Assembly (NCBI RefSeq): GCF_020735465.1
Contig: NZ_CP085935.1
Location: 62,001 to 126,000, forward strand
Direction: 5' to 3'
Origin: Collinsella stercoris DSM 13279
GTDB lineage: Bacteria; Actinomycetota; Coriobacteriia; Coriobacteriales; Coriobacteriaceae
DNA length: 64,000 nt
Below are positions 41,005 to 48,633 of this stretch, one piece after another (the first letter of the stretch is position 1; every line of letters begins with the position of its first letter). The notes under the pieces were generated by a model. It saw nothing but the letters and a program-made list of their open reading frames with translations. It did not search any database and was not told where the DNA came from. The translations under genes and the position numbers were made by a program.

Positions 41005-41030
41005 GGGGTCGCCTGAGGCGACCCCTTTCT
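41005..41030 (+). terminator. Terminator of clpC
   Basis: GGGGTCGCC and GGCGACCCC form a 9-bp stem with a 3-base loop, followed by TTTCT. Confidence 0.9.
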
Positions 41031-41109: not shown

Positions 41110-41150
41110 TAAGCCGCGCGTGGAGTCGATTGAGCTTAAAGGATATTTGT

Positions 41151-41188
41151 CCTGCCCCCCCGGCGCGGGGGGCAGGGCTAGTTTTTCT
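41151..41188 (+). terminator. Strong terminator or attenuator upstream of the radical SAM gene
   Basis: CCTGCCCCCC and GGGGGGCAGG form a perfect 10-bp stem with a 6-base loop, followed by GCTAGTTTTTCTTT. No gene ends just before it, so it closes either a small RNA starting near 41110 or an attenuated leader. Confidence 0.85.
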
Positions 41189-41275
41189 TTGTGCGCCTGT
41201 ATTCTACTTTGCATTAGCGACTATAAAGATATCCTTATACATCAGCTTGTGATTGATTTCTAACAGGTGGTGTAC

Positions 41276-42517
41276 ATGCGGCTTGCTGATTACGTTGTTC
41301 GGTTTTCACTGGGGACAATCCCGACTGTCGGGAATCCGCGAACCGGTGCAATTGTAGGCTTGACTCCAGATGGACAAACGCTTGTGGAGTCGATGTCGCG
41401 ATGTGACATTGAGCCGGCCGAAGTGCCTGCATCTTGTTTGCAACTTGTTGATTATTTACAATGCCATGGCTTCCTTGCTGACAACGATTCCGCTGCTCCG
41501 GTAGTCACCTCCGCATACTTGCATGTTACTCCTCAATGCAACTTCTCGTGCATAGGTTGCTATTCTGGTTCAGATCGCATGGCACATTATTGTGTGCCTA
41601 CCGTTGACCAGCTCACTGTTGCGATCAATATGCTGGCACAACTTGGTGTCCAGGAACTAATTTATTCCGGTGGCGAGCCGTTCATGAGGGAAGATATGGC
41701 TCTATTGGTACGGAGAGCCGCGTATCATGGCATACCGCGGCAAACCATCATTACAAACGGTTCGCTGTTGAGCAAACATTGTTTGACGTCGTTTAGGGGC
41801 TTCGTTCAGACCGTTGCTTTATCGTGTGATCGTCTTTTTGACGACGAGATATCTTACTTGGGCCGGGATATCTCTGCTGCAGATTATTTAGTGACATGTG
41901 ACGCTGTGTGCGCAGCGGGCCTTCGTCCTCACATCCTGCTTACGCTGCATCCCAAGAATTACCTGAACATACCTCGCTATCTTGCGCTTGCAGATGAGCG
42001 TGGTTTCACGATCGGCTTTAGCCTTCTAAGCTGCATCTCCTCTGAGTGTCACGATCTGGTCTTCACTGATGAGCAGCTTCAAGAGCTTGCGGAAATTTTG
42101 ATGTCGGAACAAGTAGGTGTCGGCGATTATGCAGAGTCTTCCGGCTGCACTCATTTACATGGTCTGACCTGTGTGACATATTGTGGGGCGGGACGAAGGT
42201 GCGTAAGCGTATCGTATGATGGAACGATATACCCATGTCACATGTTGCACATACCCGAACTGCGTGTAGGCAATGCCTTTGTCGATAGTGGCGAGGATGT
42301 TCGAAAAGGTCTCGCGTCACACCCTCTTCAATCGGTTGATGAAGTGCCCGGTTGTAAATCATGTGACATTCGATATCTCTGCGGAGGCGGTTGTCGTGCG
42401 CGGATGATGCATGCGTCAGGCAGTTGGTTTTCCAATCGATCCTCATGCGACCCCTATTGCATGTTCTATCAGCATGTGATTGGATTGCAAATCGACCGAG
42501 TCTTGGGAAAGGGGTGA
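41276..42517 (+). CDS. Radical SAM/SPASM peptide maturase
   Basis: The 413-residue enzyme has the radical SAM cluster motif CNFSCIGC (C88, C92, C95), GGEP at 132-135, and a C-terminal SPASM domain with cysteines C303, C309, C321, C360, C363, C369, C373, C391 and C395 (signature CGGGC) for two auxiliary clusters. Residues 1-70 resemble a PqqD-like peptide-recognition region. Enzymes of this type install cross-links, thioethers or other changes on ribosomal peptides. AGGTGG lies six bases before ATG 41276. The gene heads a low-GC cluster with a small peptide frame, a regulator pair, a secreted protein and an ABC exporter. The substrate is not proven. Confidence 0.9.
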   Translation: MRLADYVVRFSLGTIPTVGNPRTGAIVGLTPDGQTLVESMSRCDIEPAEVPASCLQLVDYLQCHGFLADNDSAAPVVTSAYLHVTPQCNFSCIGCYSGSDRMAHYCVPTVDQLTVAINMLAQLGVQELIYSGGEPFMREDMALLVRRAAYHGIPRQTIITNGSLLSKHCLTSFRGFVQTVALSCDRLFDDEISYLGRDISAADYLVTCDAVCAAGLRPHILLTLHPKNYLNIPRYLALADERGFTIGFSLLSCISSECHDLVFTDEQLQELAEILMSEQVGVGDYAESSGCTHLHGLTCVTYCGAGRRCVSVSYDGTIYPCHMLHIPELRVGNAFVDSGEDVRKGLASHPLQSVDEVPGCKSCDIRYLCGGGCRARMMHASGSWFSNRSSCDPYCMFYQHVIGLQIDRVLGKG

Positions 42518-42522
42518 GTTAA

Positions 42523-42594
42523 ATGTTGTTTGTGATTGAGGGTGCTTACTATGATAAGTGTACGGTAATTTTCGGCATCAAGATTGGTAGATAG
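42523..42594 (+). CDS. 23-residue candidate precursor peptide next to the radical SAM gene
   Basis: An ATG frame of 23 codons starts five bases after the radical SAM stop, with AAAGGGG about 12 bases upstream. The peptide begins MLFVIEGAYYDK, has one cysteine (C13), two adjacent tyrosines and ends IFGIKIGR. Its size and place recall PqqA (also 23 residues, with Glu and Tyr as substrates and a basic end), but the sequences are not alike enough to claim homology. The next gene starts nine bases later. It could also be a translational coupling leader. No membrane or signal features are seen. Confidence 0.45.
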   Translation: MLFVIEGAYYDKCTVIFGIKIGR

Positions 42595-42603
42595 GAGATC
42601 GTT

Positions 42604-43152
42604 TTGCCTAAAGTCGTGCATAGCAACGATGCGCGTTATAGAGAAGTCGAAGCACGGGCTCACGTCGGGAGACGGCCGCTGCGTTTCGCCTTCTTTACGG
42701 GAGCATCATTTGCAGTCATTGTGTTGGCGCTTGGTGGATTGTCGGCTTTGTCCGGTTCTTATCTGTTGGGCCAATCGTTGAAAGATGGCACATTAAATGC
42801 CTTAGCTGCTGTATCCATCGCTTTTGAGCTATGCTCATCTGTTCTTGACATTGTCGTATCGGTTTTGGTTCTGAGGTTCTACATAAGGGTTTATCGAGGT
42901 GGGTTGCAGCAGTGTTTCTCTAGTTCAAAGGAAATGCGTGCAATTGCCATTTGCTTATTGATAAACGTAATCGTCAAGCTGATTTCGCCCAAATTGCCAA
43001 CAATGTACCTGTTTTCAGGCGTTATTGAGCTCGAGAGCTCGGGTCCTTCCCTCGATCTTTTGTCCCTTTTCATGTCGGGCTTCTTTTTCGTGCTGTCCTC
43101 GATCTTTCAGTATGGTGCGGCGGTTCAAAATGATTCCGACGAAATAGTATAG
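42604..43152 (+). CDS. DUF2975-type integral membrane protein
   Basis: The 182-residue product has four membrane segments (about 28-52, 62-88, 105-127 and 148-168) and ends SIFQYGAAVQNDSDEIV, the typical end of DUF2975 proteins. That family is regularly encoded directly before a small XRE regulator, as here. The function is unknown; a membrane-bound partner controlling the regulator is a reasonable inference. The start is TTG with AGGAGA four bases upstream. It lies between the radical SAM gene and the regulator in one likely transcript. Confidence 0.75.
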   Translation: MPKVVHSNDARYREVEARAHVGRRPLRFAFFTGASFAVIVLALGGLSALSGSYLLGQSLKDGTLNALAAVSIAFELCSSVLDIVVSVLVLRFYIRVYRGGLQQCFSSSKEMRAIAICLLINVIVKLISPKLPTMYLFSGVIELESSGPSLDLLSLFMSGFFFVLSSIFQYGAAVQNDSDEIV

Positions 43153-43167
43153 CCGGGGAGTTTGGGC

Positions 43168-43419
43168 ATGCAGATTGTAATGCGCCTTGATGTGATGATG
43201 GCAAAGCGCAAGATGACGGTGACGCAACTCGCGAAGGAAACGGGTCTTTCGGCGGTGAATATAACGCGCATCAAAAATGGGCGACTGCAAGGTATTCGTT
43301 TTTCGAGTCTCGTGCTGCTGTGCGATGCTCTGCATTGCAAGCCCGGTGACCTAATTGATTATATGTCGGACGAGGAATTCGAAGAGGAGTTCGGCTATCC
43401 GCCGGAGCGAGACGAGTAA
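43168..43419 (+). CDS. Small XRE-family (YozG-like) transcriptional regulator
   Basis: The 83-residue protein is a single Cro/C1 helix-turn-helix: MAKRKMTVTQLAKETGLSAV, NITRIKNGRLQGIRFSSLVL and LCDALHCKPGDLIDYM. Such minimal regulators pair with DUF2975 membrane proteins. GGGGAG lies eight bases before ATG 43168. A terminator follows at 43471, and a large palindrome overlaps the next promoter, which is a plausible binding site for this protein. The last residues are strongly acidic. Confidence 0.88.
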   Translation: MQIVMRLDVMMAKRKMTVTQLAKETGLSAVNITRIKNGRLQGIRFSSLVLLCDALHCKPGDLIDYMSDEEFEEEFGYPPERDE

Positions 43420-43470
43420 GATTCGCTTTTGGATTTTTGCAACACATCACTATAGTCGGTGTTAGTGTTA

Positions 43471-43496
43471 TAGCTCCTGGTGCTAGGAGCTATTTT
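43471..43496 (+). terminator. Terminator after the XRE regulator
   Basis: TAGCTCCT and AGGAGCTA form an 8-bp stem with a 6-base loop, followed by TTTTC. Confidence 0.8.
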
Positions 43497-43500
43497 CATA

Positions 43501-43551
43501 ATTGAAATCAATCATCTCATGATTGATTTCAATCAGAAGGAAGACTATATT
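43501..43551 (+). promoter_or_regulatory. Promoter and 14-bp-arm palindrome before the secreted protein
   Basis: ATTGAAATCAATCA and TGATTGATTTCAAT (43501-43514 and 43520-43533) are perfect arms around TCTCA. The right arm contains a -35-like TTGATT (43523-43528); a -10 TATATT follows after 17 bases (43546-43551). TGATTGATTTC recurs at 41250-41260 before the radical SAM gene. Confidence 0.7.
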
Positions 43552-43608
43552 ATCGGACATGGACGAAGGGAATCGTCCATGCGGGTCTCGAAAGGAAGGA
43601 GCCTTGCA

Positions 43609-44046
43609 ATGACGAAGTCAATGACGAGGGATAAAGGAGGGCTGCTCGCGTTGTTTGCATGTGTGCTAATCGCGGTTTCTTTGGTTGCCGCGCCGGTGGC
43701 ATCATATGCTAACAATCATCAAGATGTTCGTTATACGAGGTATGTTGGATCTAGCGCAACCAGCTCGTACACGTCGCGTCGGCTCAAGGTTGATGCGTCG
43801 TCGATGTATTCATATAACGATAAATCTGCAGGCAGCTATTATGCTATGGGAGTGGGCTTTGCATCCGCTTCGAGCACTACAGGGCATCTCAACACCGTTA
43901 TCGATAATGTTCTCTGCCGAAAGGGCAACGCCTATTTTATTCGCCAAAACGTGCATGAGCTCGGGTATGGTTACGCAGCTCTGAAGATCACTCCGATGTT
44001 TACTAGCGGAAGCATCAACATGCTGTGGAGTGCCGACAGCGTCTAG
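43609..44046 (+). CDS. Secreted 145-residue protein of the peptide/ABC cluster
   Basis: The product has a clear signal peptide (LLALFACVLIAVSLVAAPVA, likely cut after SYA near residue 34), giving a mature chain of about 110 residues rich in Ser, Tyr and Ala with one cysteine. I do not recognise a domain with certainty; the C-terminal half (YFIRQNVHELGYGYAALKI to a final WSADSV) recalls small exported proteins encoded beside bacteriocin-type ABC exporters. AAGGAG lies eight bases before ATG 43609. It has its own operator-promoter and a terminator directly after its stop, so it may be made in excess over the ABC genes behind it. It is the alternative substrate candidate for this system. Confidence 0.7.
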   Translation: MTKSMTRDKGGLLALFACVLIAVSLVAAPVASYANNHQDVRYTRYVGSSATSSYTSRRLKVDASSMYSYNDKSAGSYYAMGVGFASASSTTGHLNTVIDNVLCRKGNAYFIRQNVHELGYGYAALKITPMFTSGSINMLWSADSV

Positions 44047-44060
44047 TGAATGTATCTGCG

Positions 44061-44097
44061 CGTCGGTCGCGGTATCGTACGCGGCCGACGTCTTTTT
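44061..44097 (+). terminator. Terminator (likely leaky) between the secreted protein and the ABC genes
   Basis: CGTCGGTCGCG and CGCGGCCGACG form an 11-bp stem with one G-T pair, followed by TCTTTTTT. The next ribosome site starts within ten bases, so read-through would feed the ABC operon. Confidence 0.8.
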
Positions 44098-44108
44098 TAG
44101 GAGGGTCG

Positions 44109-44819
44109 ATGCGAAAGATAACCCGTAACGCCATTGTGGCTACGGTGTCGACCGTCGCTGTCATAGCCGTGGCGTTTCCGGTGTTCTCGCGCGCGATGGG
44201 GAAGTTACAAAATGAGGGAAGCGGGTGGGAGCCAACGCATGCTTCTCAGCTCCCTTCTGCCGATGCCCCTGTGGAGGAAGACCCGGGTGGAGTTCCGGTA
44301 GAGGCGGCGATCGGCGAGTCATTTATCGTCGGCGAGCAACTTGAGGTTACGGTTAACGGCATTGCGTGCCAAAAAGAGAAAGGGCCCCTGCCGGAGCTGT
44401 CTCAGGATTGGGCCGATTATTACGGCGTGATTTTAGATACGAACGGGACGATACAAAACGATTTCGTATACGTGATTGTTGAGGCGACATTTAAAAACGT
44501 ATCGGACAGCGCTGATGCGGGTGAGATTCGTCTCAACCAGAGCTGCCTAGCGCAAGATGTCGACGGGGATGTATCGCCCGTTGCGGAGGTGGTCCTGTGC
44601 GACTCGGTTGACCTGAATGCGCAGGTGAGCAATGCCGGTGAATACGACTTGGCTGACGGTGAGTCGATTACGACCCACTTGGGATATGTCGTGCCCCAGG
44701 ATGCTCTTTCCGATTCTGGCTCGCCGCTGTACTTTTTGCCCGATTTCACGGGCGCATCATTGTACGATCCGGCTTCTGTAAACGCTCATTGGGTCAAAGT
44801 TCCAGCGTTCGAGGGGTAA
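44109..44819 (+). CDS. Membrane-anchored extracytoplasmic protein of the ABC cluster
   Basis: The 236-residue product has an N-terminal hydrophobic segment (NAIVATVSTVAVIAVAFPVF) followed by a beta-rich outer domain. The stretch NDFVYVIVEATFKNVSDS and LNQSCLAQDVDGD resemble immunoglobulin-like domains of the DUF4352/DUF5067 type found on exported proteins. A similar architecture recurs in the last gene of the cluster. AGGAGG lies five bases before the ATG. A role in producer immunity or as an exporter accessory is my inference from position alone. Confidence 0.65.
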   Translation: MRKITRNAIVATVSTVAVIAVAFPVFSRAMGKLQNEGSGWEPTHASQLPSADAPVEEDPGGVPVEAAIGESFIVGEQLEVTVNGIACQKEKGPLPELSQDWADYYGVILDTNGTIQNDFVYVIVEATFKNVSDSADAGEIRLNQSCLAQDVDGDVSPVAEVVLCDSVDLNAQVSNAGEYDLADGESITTHLGYVVPQDALSDSGSPLYFLPDFTGASLYDPASVNAHWVKVPAFEG

Positions 44820-44874
44820 TGAGACACGGCGGTCATGAGATTTGCGTAGTGTCTGCTTGGTAGAGGAGATGGCT

Positions 44875-45711
44875 ATGAGCAAGCTGCTCGCAATCGAACT
44901 CAAGCGCGCTTTTAGCAGCAGCGGCATGGTTGCGGCCTTGCTGGTCGGATGCGCCTTGGCTATTCATCATTTTGTCGCCTCGGTGACGGCTGGATGCTAT
45001 CTTACTGGTTTTGAGGCCGAGGCGGAGCGACTGGGGTCCATGGTCTTCGCTCCTGATTTCCTTTGGGGTTGCTGGATGGGGGCCGATGGTACCAAGTTTC
45101 ATGGGTACCTGCTCCTGCTGCTTATGCCTGTTTTGGCTGGACTGCCACACGCCGCCTCCTATGTAGAGGATCGTGCCAACGGCTATTTGGTCACGGTGTT
45201 CTCTCGTGTTGAACGCCGGTCGTACTACGCATCAAAATGGCTTGCCACGTTTGTGTCCGGAGGCGTCGTCTCGTCGTTGCCGTTTGTCTTGAATTTCCTG
45301 TTATTTCTCACGGTGTATCCCGTCGTCGATCCTGTGATCGGGTCGGGCCACTGCGTGGCGGGTGTCAATGCTATTTTCTCCAGTGTGTACTTCTCCCATC
45401 CTCTTGCGTGGGTGGTGCTTTGGATTTGCGTGCTGTTCGTCGCTGGTGGTCTCATGGCGACGCTCGGGCTGGCGGTGACGCCTCTGACGGAGTATCGGCT
45501 GGTTGTTCACGTCCTGCCGTTTTTGTTTTTGTATATCGTCGCGATGGCGCTTGGCGCATTCGGCCTTGGGAGGCTGGGGCTCTTTACGCTCATTGATCCC
45601 TTGCGCAACGAGGGCGGCTTACCGGTACTTGTCGGTGAGCTTGCAATCATGTTCGCCCTTTCTGCCGGGGTCCTGACATGCATGTGCGCCCGTCGAACGG
45701 ACGTGGCATGA
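44875..45711 (+). CDS. ABC-2-type permease, first of three
   Basis: The 278-residue protein has about six membrane segments and the ABC-2 permease character: a cytoplasmic start, EDRANGYLVTVFSRVERRSYYASKW as the coupling region near 98-122, then paired hydrophobic helices. GAGGAG lies six bases before ATG 44875. The stop overlaps the next permease start (ATGA). With two further permeases and one ATPase in the same unit it forms an exporter; the cargo is probably the cluster's peptide or secreted protein. Confidence 0.8.
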   Translation: MSKLLAIELKRAFSSSGMVAALLVGCALAIHHFVASVTAGCYLTGFEAEAERLGSMVFAPDFLWGCWMGADGTKFHGYLLLLLMPVLAGLPHAASYVEDRANGYLVTVFSRVERRSYYASKWLATFVSGGVVSSLPFVLNFLLFLTVYPVVDPVIGSGHCVAGVNAIFSSVYFSHPLAWVVLWICVLFVAGGLMATLGLAVTPLTEYRLVVHVLPFLFLYIVAMALGAFGLGRLGLFTLIDPLRNEGGLPVLVGELAIMFALSAGVLTCMCARRTDVA

Positions 45712-46460
45712 GATCGCTGGGGTATCGGAGGTTACATAAGGGCTTTGCGCTTTTGGCGCTTGGCTCGCTGGCTTTCGCGCTTGCCGCGCTCATGCACGAT
45801 CTGTTTGGCTGGGCAAGCGTCGATCTTGGAGTGAGCGCTTGCGCGGTCGATGTGCTGCTGGGCGCGCTTGACCCACGTGTTGCTCCCATTGCCCTTGGTA
45901 TTCCAGCGTCCATGGCGCTCCTTGCGTTCACCAATAACGATTTTGACGCGCGGTTCGTGTTGTTGCACACGGCAGGGCGTCGATCTCTTGCCATGGGGGA
46001 GTGCGTATGCGCGGGGGCGGCGGCGGGTCTGGCTGTTCTCGGCGCGCTATTCCTGACGGGTGTGCTGTCGTGTGTTTCGGGAGCTTCATTCCTAAACTGG
46101 GGGGATGCGGCGTCTTATGGCGCGTGGCGCGCAGGCATGCCGATGTCCGTGCCGATGCCCGTTCCCCTTCTCACGTTCTCAATAAGCGCCTTTTCAGCGC
46201 TCTTTGTGCTGCTTGTGTTTGAGGTCTGGGGGCGATGGGTGTGTAAGCGAGCGTGGTGGAGCCTGGTGGCCATCATCCCGTATTCCTTGCTATATGCGGT
46301 GACCTTGGGGCCGATTCTCGCCGTGGGCCCCGAGAGCTTCGCCTCCGTCCCTTGGTCCTCGCTTACGTGCTCCATGTTGCTTGTTGTGGGAGCAGGCGTG
46401 TTGTCGTACCTGTTTTCTCGTTCTTCCCTCGTTGGAAATAAGGACTTCTATGGCTGCTGA
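45708..46460 (+). CDS. ABC-2-type permease, second of three
   Basis: This 250-residue protein has about six hydrophobic segments. It begins MRSLGYRRLHKGFALLALGS and includes FTNNDFDARFVLLHTAGRRS near 76-95, which looks like the coupling helix region. It overlaps the first permease by four bases and the third by eleven, showing tight coupling. The three permeases are only weakly alike, so they are probably different subunits rather than fresh duplicates. Confidence 0.75.
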   Translation: MRSLGYRRLHKGFALLALGSLAFALAALMHDLFGWASVDLGVSACAVDVLLGALDPRVAPIALGIPASMALLAFTNNDFDARFVLLHTAGRRSLAMGECVCAGAAAGLAVLGALFLTGVLSCVSGASFLNWGDAASYGAWRAGMPMSVPMPVPLLTFSISAFSALFVLLVFEVWGRWVCKRAWWSLVAIIPYSLLYAVTLGPILAVGPESFASVPWSSLTCSMLLVVGAGVLSYLFSRSSLVGNKDFYGC

Positions 46461-47271
46461 TCGACGTTCCTCCCACCATGCGTCCCTGCGTGCTCGCGCC
46501 GGTATTGCGCCGTTGCACGTCGGGGCGCTCATGCTCGCTGAAATCTTGATCGTGTTCGCCTCGGCAAGTGAGGTCCAGGCGTATGCGGGCGCCGACATGA
46601 CGGCGGGTGATGTGTTCTACAACATTTCCCGAGGAATGATGGTGCAGGAGTATTTCGCCTCGGGTCGAACGTTCTCAATTCCCGTGCTGTGGCTGACGAA
46701 CATCCTCGTTCTTCTCCTTGGGGCGGTGATGCTCGCAATGCCCTCGCGTGATGGCATTGAGCGCGGGCGGATGATGGCATCGGGTAGTCGAACGCATTAC
46801 TGGCTGTCTCGGTGCGTACTTGCGTTGATCTGGCCCCTGCTGGCGCTGATCACTCGCCTTGCCTGCAGCGAGGCGTTTGCCCTTGCTTGGGGAGGATCGG
46901 CGGCGATGGGGCAGGTGTCAGATGGCGCCTGTATCTTGTTTGAGTCGCAGGGGGTCGTCGTGTGGGGCGGCGCTCAGCTCGTCGCCACGGTGCTGATTGA
47001 GCTGGTTGGCGGATGTGTCATGTGCCTTGCGCTTGCTTCGATGGCGCTGGCGACACATACGCCGATTGCATGCATGGTGGCGATCGGATATGTGGTCGTC
47101 GGCGTGTACTCGTGTTCGCCACTATTTCTGACCAACTGGATGATGGCGTATCGGACGGTTGAGTACGGGTGCGGTTTATCGGCTGTGCTCGGTGCTGTTG
47201 CCGGAGTGTGCGTGCTGCTTTCGTGCTGCGTATATGCCCATGTACGCCTGCGCAGAAGAGACGTCATTTGA
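46450..47271 (+). CDS. ABC-2-type permease, third of three
   Basis: The 273-residue product has a basic N-terminus (MAADRRSSHHASLRARAG) and about six membrane segments, with an outer loop after the first (SEVQAYAGADMTAGDVFYNI) and a coupling-like segment SRDGIERGRMMASGSRTHYW near 98-118. It starts inside the end of the second permease gene. No ATP-binding motif is present; the ATPase is the next gene, 67 bases downstream. Confidence 0.75.
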   Translation: MAADRRSSHHASLRARAGIAPLHVGALMLAEILIVFASASEVQAYAGADMTAGDVFYNISRGMMVQEYFASGRTFSIPVLWLTNILVLLLGAVMLAMPSRDGIERGRMMASGSRTHYWLSRCVLALIWPLLALITRLACSEAFALAWGGSAAMGQVSDGACILFESQGVVVWGGAQLVATVLIELVGGCVMCLALASMALATHTPIACMVAIGYVVVGVYSCSPLFLTNWMMAYRTVEYGCGLSAVLGAVAGVCVLLSCCVYAHVRLRRRDVI

Positions 47272-47338
47272 GGATGGTGCTGTTGAGTGATTCGAGTAAC
47301 GAGTTCGTTGCTTCGTGATATGGAAGAAGGGGATTCCC

Positions 47339-47992
47339 GTGCATGTTTCGATCGATCATGTGACTAAGACGATCAAGGGCGAAACGGTTCTCAACGACAT
47401 ATGTCTGGAATTGGAGAGCGGGTCGGTGTATGGGTTGCGGGGCAAAAACGGTTCGGGGAAAACCATGCTGCTTCGTGTTCTGTGTGGCTTGGTTGTCCCG
47501 AGCGGCGGTCGCGTGATCGTTGACGGGGAGGCCCTCCATGAGGGGGAGCGGTCGTTTCCCGCCAGCGTGGGAGTGTTGATCGAAAATCCCGGGATCATTC
47601 GGAGCTATTCTGGATTTCGGTACCTCCAATCCGTGGCATCGGTTCGCGGAATCGCGTCCGATGAGGACATCGTGCGCATGATGCAGCGCCTTGGCCTCGA
47701 CCCCTTGAGCCGTAAGCCGCTGAGGAGTTATTCCTTGGGAATGAGGCAGAAAATCGGCATCATCGAGGCGCTCATGGAGAAGCCCGAACTTGTGCTGCTT
47801 GATGAGCCGTTCAATGCGTTGGACGACGGCTCGGTGCGAGAAGTTGTGCGTTTGATAGACGAGATGCGAACGGAGGGGGCGCTGGCCGTCGTCTCCTCGC
47901 ACGACCGCGATGAGCTCGATCTTATTTCCGATGTGATTGTCAATATGAGGGGCGGCTGCGTGACCGGTATCGAGCGGCAAGGAGCGGCGTGA
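47339..47992 (+). CDS. ABC transporter ATP-binding protein
   Basis: The 217-residue ATPase has Walker A GKNGSGKTMLLR near 35-46, a Q-loop region IENPGI, the signature YSLGMRQKIGI (SLGMRQ in place of LSGGQ, as in exporters of the bacitracin/lantibiotic type), Walker B LVLLDEPFNALDD, and the switch histidine in VVSSHDRDEL. I place the start at GTG 47339 with AGGGG six bases upstream. It drives export by the three permeases before it. The stop overlaps the next start by one base. Confidence 0.9.
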   Translation: MHVSIDHVTKTIKGETVLNDICLELESGSVYGLRGKNGSGKTMLLRVLCGLVVPSGGRVIVDGEALHEGERSFPASVGVLIENPGIIRSYSGFRYLQSVASVRGIASDEDIVRMMQRLGLDPLSRKPLRSYSLGMRQKIGIIEALMEKPELVLLDEPFNALDDGSVREVVRLIDEMRTEGALAVVSSHDRDELDLISDVIVNMRGGCVTGIERQGAA

Positions 47993-48633
47993 TGAGTGAT
48001 ACCCATGTTGCGCAAGTCGACAAGGATGCGTCGGATGCGCTCAAGGCAATAGGGCGTCGTCGTGCCCGGCGGCGTGTGGCGGCGCTCGCCGCGTTGGCGC
48101 TTGTCTGCGCAGGTGCTTTGGCGGTCGCGATTCGCTCCCATGCCCTGTCGAGTGCATATGCTCTGGGGGACCCCCTGGCGTTTGCCGAGGGAGTGGATGT
48201 TGTATATCCCGGAGCGGAGGACGTGTTGTTTTCCGTTGAGGGGGCGGGGTACCTGAGCGATACGGATGCCCAGACGATTTGTCCCGATGCATACGAGGAG
48301 GCATCTGAGGCGGCGGCGCGCTTCAAGATGTATAAAGTCGATTTGGCGTTCACGAACAACGGTAAGGCTGATTACCCGCTGGAGGAGCTTCTGCATTCTA
48401 TTCTGGCGATTGGCGATGCGTACGGAAACGGCGTGAACTACCGTGCGAGTGAGGAGGCATCCGGAGGGTCGCTGCCGACGAGTGCTCCCGCGGGCGAGGA
48501 GATTCGCTTTACGTTCGTGTATACGGTGTACGACTATTCGTTTACCGAAGAGCAATGGTCGAACATCGAGGCGGAGCACACACGCTTCATCTTCTCTATG
48601 TGGCCGCGTGTCGAATCGATCGAACTGCAATAG
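47992..48633 (+). CDS. Membrane-anchored extracytoplasmic protein, end of the ABC cluster
   Basis: The 213-residue product has a cytoplasmic basic stretch (GRRRARRR near 21-28), one membrane segment (VAALAALALVCAGALAVAI) and an outer domain with VDLAFTNNGKADYPLEELLH and a final SMWPRVESIELQ. Its plan mirrors the protein at 44109. I recognise no catalytic motif. The ATG shares a base with the ATPase stop. It may be an immunity or accessory subunit. No clear terminator follows in the 160 bases before disA. Confidence 0.65.
   Translation: MSDTHVAQVDKDASDALKAIGRRRARRRVAALAALALVCAGALAVAIRSHALSSAYALGDPLAFAEGVDVVYPGAEDVLFSVEGAGYLSDTDAQTICPDAYEEASEAAARFKMYKVDLAFTNNGKADYPLEELLHSILAIGDAYGNGVNYRASEEASGGSLPTSAPAGEEIRFTFVYTVYDYSFTEEQWSNIEAEHTRFIFSMWPRVESIELQ

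Follow-up and report, generated by a model that had tools for sequence, protein, structure and literature searches.

The 64,000-nucleotide stretch of the Collinsella stercoris DSM 13279 genome analyzed here (the window; contig NZ_CP085935.1, positions 62,001 to 126,000) contains, at window positions 41276-48633, a group of genes that begins with a radical S-adenosylmethionine (rSAM) enzyme and a very short reading frame. An earlier note had proposed the whole group as a new peptide-modification and export cluster. As that note had described, every gene of the region, from the rSAM gene to the second of two genes for membrane-anchored proteins, was encoded on the plus strand, and the GC content (48-61%) was below that of the flanks (mostly 63-69%), with a minimum of 48-50% from the rSAM gene to a gene for a secreted protein. 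The rSAM gene (41276..42517, +) encodes a radical SAM/SPASM peptide maturase of 413 amino acids, identified by Pfam (Radical_SAM, 3.9e-12; SPASM, 2.9e-5), a structure model and alignment. Six bases after its stop codon starts a frame of 23 codons (42523..42594, +), taken from the listing of open reading frames (ORFs) and from its conservation beside the rSAM gene. It has an ATG start with the ribosome site AAAGGGGTG upstream, begins with Met-Leu-Phe (MLF) and encodes MLFVIEGAYYDKCTVIFGIKIGR, the predicted maturase substrate. A DUF2975-like membrane protein (42604..43152, +) and an XRE regulator (43162..43419, +; ATG 43168 is the likelier start) follow. Of this pair, the regulator was clearly recognized by Pfam (HTH_26, 1.2e-21), but the DUF2975 assignment was based on four predicted transmembrane (TM) segments and a weak Pfam match, under the cut-off for the window copy.

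Searches with the rSAM protein covered 67 genomes of the family and 397 of the order Coriobacteriales. Relatives at E below 1e-25 were found in 75 of the 397 genomes (19%) and in 26 of 123 genera, chiefly in three families. We compared 73 loci, namely the window and 72 others fetched with their flanks. An MLF peptide was encoded no more than about 140 nt from the rSAM stop codon in 56 of them, often overlapping the stop and with a strong Shine-Dalgarno sequence. Seven loci (L029, L030, L070, L075, L076, L082 and L087) showed the order DUF2975-XRE-rSAM, with the peptide gene directly 5′ of DUF2975 and the rSAM stop 2.2-2.4 kb downstream of the peptide gene. Two loci (L031 and L032) encode an MQF variant with a GTG start, and two (L081 and L096) encode longer forms. 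With the variant and longer forms counted, and with three loci cut by contig ends left out (L020, L060 and L067), the peptide was present in 67 of 70 assessable loci. In L066, the peptide gene just 3′ of the rSAM stop looks frame-shifted, for which an error in the draft contig and decay are indistinguishable. The window's own genome carries a second rSAM-peptide-DUF2975-XRE module (L023:9755-11861; G000:C1:265754 onward), with an rSAM protein of 39-41% identity, the peptide MLFAIEEQGVALSYCSDIFGIHVGV and a different secreted protein downstream. L103 carries a second peptide-DUF2975-XRE triplet (MLFHSEAQMMSLCFAIGILEIGY) at about +4764 from the rSAM stop; it has no adjoining rSAM gene and is probably served in trans by the rSAM enzyme of that genome. 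In 22 loci (e.g. L031 and L103), a gene for a LysR-type regulator was found near the module; most of these genes are divergently oriented and start about 1.2 kb 5′ of rSAM.

The peptides found in Coriobacteriales are 21-64 amino acids long. They start with MLF in 65 of 67 cases and contain the motif C-x-x-[I/V]-x(0,1)-G. Across 88 family peptides, 125 of 160 Cys residues had a Gly at +4. Two CxxxG units were present in all 34 Eggerthellaceae-type (f4) peptides and in 18 of 21 peptides from Bacillota, while peptides of groups f1 and f2 mostly had a single C-x-x-[I/V]-x(0,1)-G unit. This motif is not circular, because in the first locus set all small ORFs 3′ of the rSAM stop were listed without a motif filter, and almost every close relative already showed an MLF peptide in that listing. 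Fourteen close pairs indicated purifying selection on the peptide (pN 0.097, pS 0.494, pN/pS about 0.2). The codons of Leu2 and Phe3 vary, and pN is low relative to pS; therefore, the conserved level is the amino acid sequence. These comparisons indicate that the 23-codon frame pointed out in the earlier note is a genuine gene for a conserved peptide. The peptides gave only isolated chance-level matches to Pfam and NCBIfam models, none of them relevant, and the window peptide matched no PHROGs model. Most are 21-40 amino acids long, and they may thus represent a family of short modified peptides overlooked by annotation. The rSAM gene beside them is scattered in Bacillota and, in Coriobacteriales, belongs chiefly to three families whose members are mostly gut bacteria.

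In Coriobacteriales, the peptide gene is directly 5′ of the DUF2975-XRE pair regardless of the side on which the rSAM gene lies. This arrangement in both gene orders might point to a translational leader for DUF2975 in place of a product, a reading that we consider very improbable. It does not fit the strong amino-acid-level constraint on the peptide, nor the tandem peptides that occur without DUF2975 in Bacillota. Natural controls for the role of the peptide are available in homologous DUF2975-XRE pairs, some of which have it and some of which do not. XRE-like matches were found in 175 of the 397 genomes of the order. In 13 genomes with XRE genes and no rSAM gene, most XRE genes were preceded by a recognizable DUF2975 gene, and several of the XRE proteins shared 84-94% identity with their counterpart at an rSAM locus; no MLF-Cys peptide was found in the upstream 1.5 kb, contrary to what a leader would predict. 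The difference between 67 of 70 rSAM loci and none of 13 rSAM-less genomes (Fisher’s exact test: p = 1e-12) ignores the relatedness of the genomes. The peptide thus appears to go with the enzyme and not with the regulators. The window pair belongs to a common Coriobacteriales type of DUF2975-XRE (HTH_26) pair, but differs in being coupled to an MLF peptide and a maturase of the rSAM type. The open-access literature yielded no functional paper on DUF2975.

Relatives in Bacillota were retrieved by a scan of one genome per species using the rSAM alignment. At least 14 loci encode an rSAM enzyme and an MLF (once MIF) peptide of 28-40 amino acids, for example MLFSTRKTVSKPNCVSVGVFVCVSYGNKW, often in tandem with up to four copies. 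They belong to Paenibacillus, Bacillus, Staphylococcus, Anaerococcus, Thermoanaerobacter, Clostridium, Kandleria, Lachnospiraceae and others. The uniformity of their motif is partly by construction, because the final list required an MLF, MIF or MLY start. Except for one distant, peptide-less row, the enzymes formed a single clade (100/99) in a tree of 48 rows. Relatives at E below 1e-50 were rare, being present in one of 247 genomes of the family of the Paenibacillus genome and in three of 299 of the family of the Lachnospiraceae genome. Neighboring genes encode an ABC ATPase with a permease, a CPBP (Rce1-like) membrane protein, a small membrane protein and ABC exporters, and agr or LytTR/GHKL regulators replace DUF2975-XRE. 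In a Clostridium metagenome-assembled genome (L140:1027-5360 and following), agrBDCA-like genes stand beside the rSAM gene and three identical MLF peptide copies, which suggests quorum-sensing control. A direct search of plasmids for the peptide found none. A Streptococcus salivarius plasmid (L201; NZ_CP018188.1) carries a related, apparently truncated rSAM gene adjoining ISSag10, with ABC and LytTR/GHKL genes and no MLF peptide in the stretch read. A Clostridioides difficile plasmid (L202:5001-10359; NZ_CP045225.1) carries two rSAM genes, a 59-amino-acid ORF, an S8 peptidase and an ABC transporter, and represents a separate cluster resembling those for ribosomally synthesized and post-translationally modified peptides (RiPPs).

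These neighborhoods raise a real possibility, though not the one we favor, that the peptide matures into a narrow-spectrum antimicrobial RiPP (bacteriocin) and not into a signal, with self-immunity conferred by DUF2975 in Coriobacteriales or by the CPBP and ABC proteins in Bacillota. Bacillota clusters with a BcrA-type ATPase and permease, a CPBP protein, an ABC exporter and agrBDCA or LytTR/GHKL genes would suit such a product, the sactipeptide enzyme StsB is among the nearest named maturases, and the ATPase encoded further downstream in the window is lantibiotic-protection-like. However, the Coriobacteriales cores have neither an exporter nor ABC immunity genes, and DUF2975-XRE pairs are common without any rSAM gene.

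The maturase consists of an RRE-like domain (about residues 1-65), a radical SAM core with C88/C92/C95 and a SPASM region with seven Cys residues. The three core Cys residues and C303, C321, C360, C363, C369, C373 and C395 of the SPASM region were invariant in 64 aligned sequences. In the structure model (pLDDT 90.7), the N-terminal domain is three-stranded and helical with pLDDT above 90 and is predicted to be of the RiPP-recognition (RRE) type; in agreement with an RRE, CteB aligned with the model over residues 6-411 and TigE over residues 1-413. CteB was the best match in the Protein Data Bank (PDB) both by sequence (E 7e-32) and by structure (Z 27.6, rmsd 6.9, 367 residues). Among the NCBIfam matches listed, the maturases fell below every specific cut-off and reached only the general SPASM domain model. 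The sactipeptide model StsB was the top match for the window enzyme (80.2 bits) and for most Bacillota maturases (113-137 bits), against a cut-off of 625 bits. For the window enzyme, the models for the SCIFF maturase (TIGR03974; 41.8 bits, cut-off 425), PapB (NF047865; 58.6 bits, cut-off 340) and AlbA (46.2 bits, cut-off 850) gave similarly low scores. The earlier note had named a place in a non-peptide family, such as the anaerobic sulfatase maturases, as evidence against its proposal. No such equivalog cut-off was reached: the model TIGR03942 gave 66-99 of 349 bits for Bacillota maturases and was absent from the best 25 models of the window enzyme.

PqqE was also among the structural neighbors in the PDB search. 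PqqA is similar in length to the MLF peptides, and the Coriobacteriales core has no exporter, so the peptide might give rise to a redox cofactor or small metabolite, as PqqA and MftA do, and not to a secreted peptide. We regard this as improbable, since the peptide has no conserved neighbor that could serve as companion protease or oxidoreductase and many Bacillota loci have exporters and several diverged tandem precursors.

The nearest structure, CteB (PDB 5wgg/5why), is a SCIFF maturase that likewise combines RRE, radical SAM and SPASM parts and acts on Cys-containing peptides; it introduces thioethers into a peptide rich in Cys. However, the identity is about 20%, and SCIFF precursors have six Cys residues in 45, whereas most peptides here have one or two in 21-40. 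Streptosactin is a small peptide with two un-nested rings from Cys to an alpha carbon (PMC8172795), and the two-unit peptides parallel its two short rings (streptosactin / GggA-GggB). Unlike streptosactin, with its short C-x-x-[S/G] units, they have C-x-x-[I/V]-G units and an MLF N-terminus, and the core here is without Rgg/SHP and without a protease. The streptococcal RaS-RiPPs also combine a short rSAM-modified peptide, an adjacent regulator and quorum-sensing-like contexts, but the MLF family has XRE-DUF2975, agr or LytTR regulators, and its MLF/Cys motif is not among the 16 subfamilies of a 2026 review (PMC13361665). Neither the maturase nor the peptide is named in the searched family libraries, and no description of the enzyme-peptide family was found in the open-access literature, in keeping with the earlier note, which knew of no described system with exactly this set. 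Most likely, this is a new family inside a known kind, the radical-SAM-modified peptides, with a regulator pairing in Coriobacteriales that is unusual.

Upstream of the secreted-protein gene, a perfect dyad of 33 bp with 15-bp arms (ATTGAAATCAATCAT-CTC-ATGATTGATTTCAAT; 43501..43533), the predicted operator, overlaps the -35-like hexamer of a promoter-like site (TTGATT-17-TATATT; 43523..43551, +) recognized by consensus match only. The regulated promoter proposed earlier for this gene is thus represented by a site and a dyad, but such promoter-like sites were no commoner here than expected by chance. Searched with at most one mismatch, the 12-bp dyad arm occurred at six sites in the single-contig genome of 2.46 Mb. 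Three of them are in this cluster, namely both arms and the half-operator TGATTGATTTCT (41250..41261, +; 11/12 identity to the arm), 15-26 nt before the rSAM start. This concentration points to a shared regulator for the rSAM unit and the secreted-gene unit, which would most simply be the XRE protein, a guess from the sequence. No copy of TGATTGATTTCA was detected 5′ of other rSAM genes, and related f1 loci showed no common dyad upstream.

Taken together, we think that the conserved core is probably an rSAM-modified peptide (RiPP-type) module with its own regulator, in which the MLF peptide is strongly supported as the maturase substrate. Very plausibly, the MLFx[I/S]E-like N-terminus would be bound by the RRE domain, while the C-terminal part would be modified at the radical site. 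Each conserved Cys may well be linked by a thioether (sactionine or ranthionine) to a residue at about +3 to +5. Coriobacteriaceae/Atopobiaceae-type peptides would then have a single small ring, and those of Eggerthellaceae and Bacillota would have two un-nested ones. Such small-ring thioethers are predicted because CteB is the best match, because of the Cys/Gly spacing and because the rings of streptosactin are known. The Coriobacteriales product might serve in signalling or growth modulation, with the DUF2975 membrane protein reading or buffering it, and XRE might control the module and, here, also the secreted-protein and ABC genes via the shared operator.

Several points weigh against this reading. 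First, L068 and L092 have the rSAM gene without the peptide, both also without a DUF2975 call, and no MLF peptide was found at several examined Bacillota rSAM loci (e.g. L142, L143, L149 and L152). Second, the sulfatase maturase anSMEcpe is nearly as similar over the core (Z 26); its structural match begins at residue 76, so that the RRE-like domain falls outside. Third, the predicted thioether chemistry is based on analogy with the nearest structures and on the pattern of Cys and Gly residues. Fourth, the Coriobacteriales core modules have no dedicated exporter or leader peptidase, and DUF2975-XRE pairs also occur without rSAM; therefore, their role need not concern the peptide. Finally, no other locus showed the operator, so binding by XRE is a guess. 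The enzyme-peptide pair is of a size that lends itself to direct co-expression.

The remaining genes appear to be a local accessory cassette, which may share the regulator of the module. They encode the secreted protein of 145 amino acids with a signal peptide (43609..44046, +), an extracytoplasmic protein with an N-terminal anchor and a weak DUF4352-like match (44109..44819, +), three permease-like membrane proteins (44875..45711, 45708..46460 and 46450..47271, all +), an ABC ATPase of the lantibiotic-protection/BcrA type with an SLGMRQ signature (47315..47992, +) and a second extracytoplasmic protein with an N-terminal anchor (47989..48633, +). The permeases, as claimed, have 6-7 predicted TM segments each, without Pfam or NCBIfam matches. 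The ATPase, also present as described, was nearest to TIGR03740 (lantibiotic protection; 142 bits, cut-off 310) and scored 84.8 of 254.9 bits with TIGR03608 (lactococcin-972-type systems). The two anchored proteins had been called look-alikes; they share one N-terminal hydrophobic stretch apiece and no detectable similarity (BLASTP E = 1.6). Two strong terminator-like stems follow the ClpC-type gene upstream of the module (41005-41025 and 41149..41178, +), of which the second (12 pairs, 10 of them GC, then TAGTTTTTCT) parts the module from that gene; another terminator-like stem lies 3′ of the secreted-protein gene (44060..44091, +).

Comparable cassettes (a small secreted protein, permeases, a related ATPase and an anchored protein) stood beside the module only at L022, whose ATPase is 39% identical to that of the window, and L029; at other loci, housekeeping genes such as ftsEX-like genes often directly follow. 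The region as a whole is therefore not one conserved modification-and-export unit, as the conserved core is limited to rSAM, peptide, DUF2975 and XRE. What stands of the initial proposal is a conserved enzyme-peptide pair that no searched library names, but not a single cluster of ten genes. The earlier note would have counted rSAM homologs without the ABC genes or the peptide against itself: they are indeed usually without these ABC genes, but in 67 of 70 loci they keep the peptide. On sequence grounds, the 23-codon peptide appears to be the sole candidate substrate travelling with the enzyme. Its conservation across loci also makes it hardly credible that the maturase modifies the secreted protein and that the short frame is incidental. 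The secreted-protein gene is close by and possibly has a common regulator site, but most rSAM loci have no secreted homolog, and the secreted proteins of L022 and L029 have no Pfam match, that of L029 being dissimilar to the window’s. The secreted protein itself barely reached the DUF2712 cut-off (22.2 vs 22 bits). DUF2712 was rejected as a link to rSAM, with matches in eight of 397 genomes and none at the rSAM loci studied; this search was insensitive, because it also missed the borderline window copy. A phage origin of the cluster was rejected, as no relative was found in the viral contig collection and phage records gave weak matches only, and so was anti-phage defence, for which PADLOC gave generic radical-SAM (viperin) and ATPase matches only.

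A more far-reaching idea, which we put forward tentatively and consider rather unlikely, is that gut Coriobacteriales have in this module a self-contained signalling device. A crosslinked MLF peptide would be perceived via DUF2975, releasing or restraining an XRE repressor and thereby switching operator-bearing cassettes of secreted effectors and ABC genes. If true, this would be a peptide circuit unlike Rgg/SHP, agr or Phr. It is also known that formyl-Met-Leu-Phe is a ligand of host formyl-peptide receptors. More speculatively, the invariant N-terminal MLF of the peptide, if left formylated and exported, would resemble this ligand.

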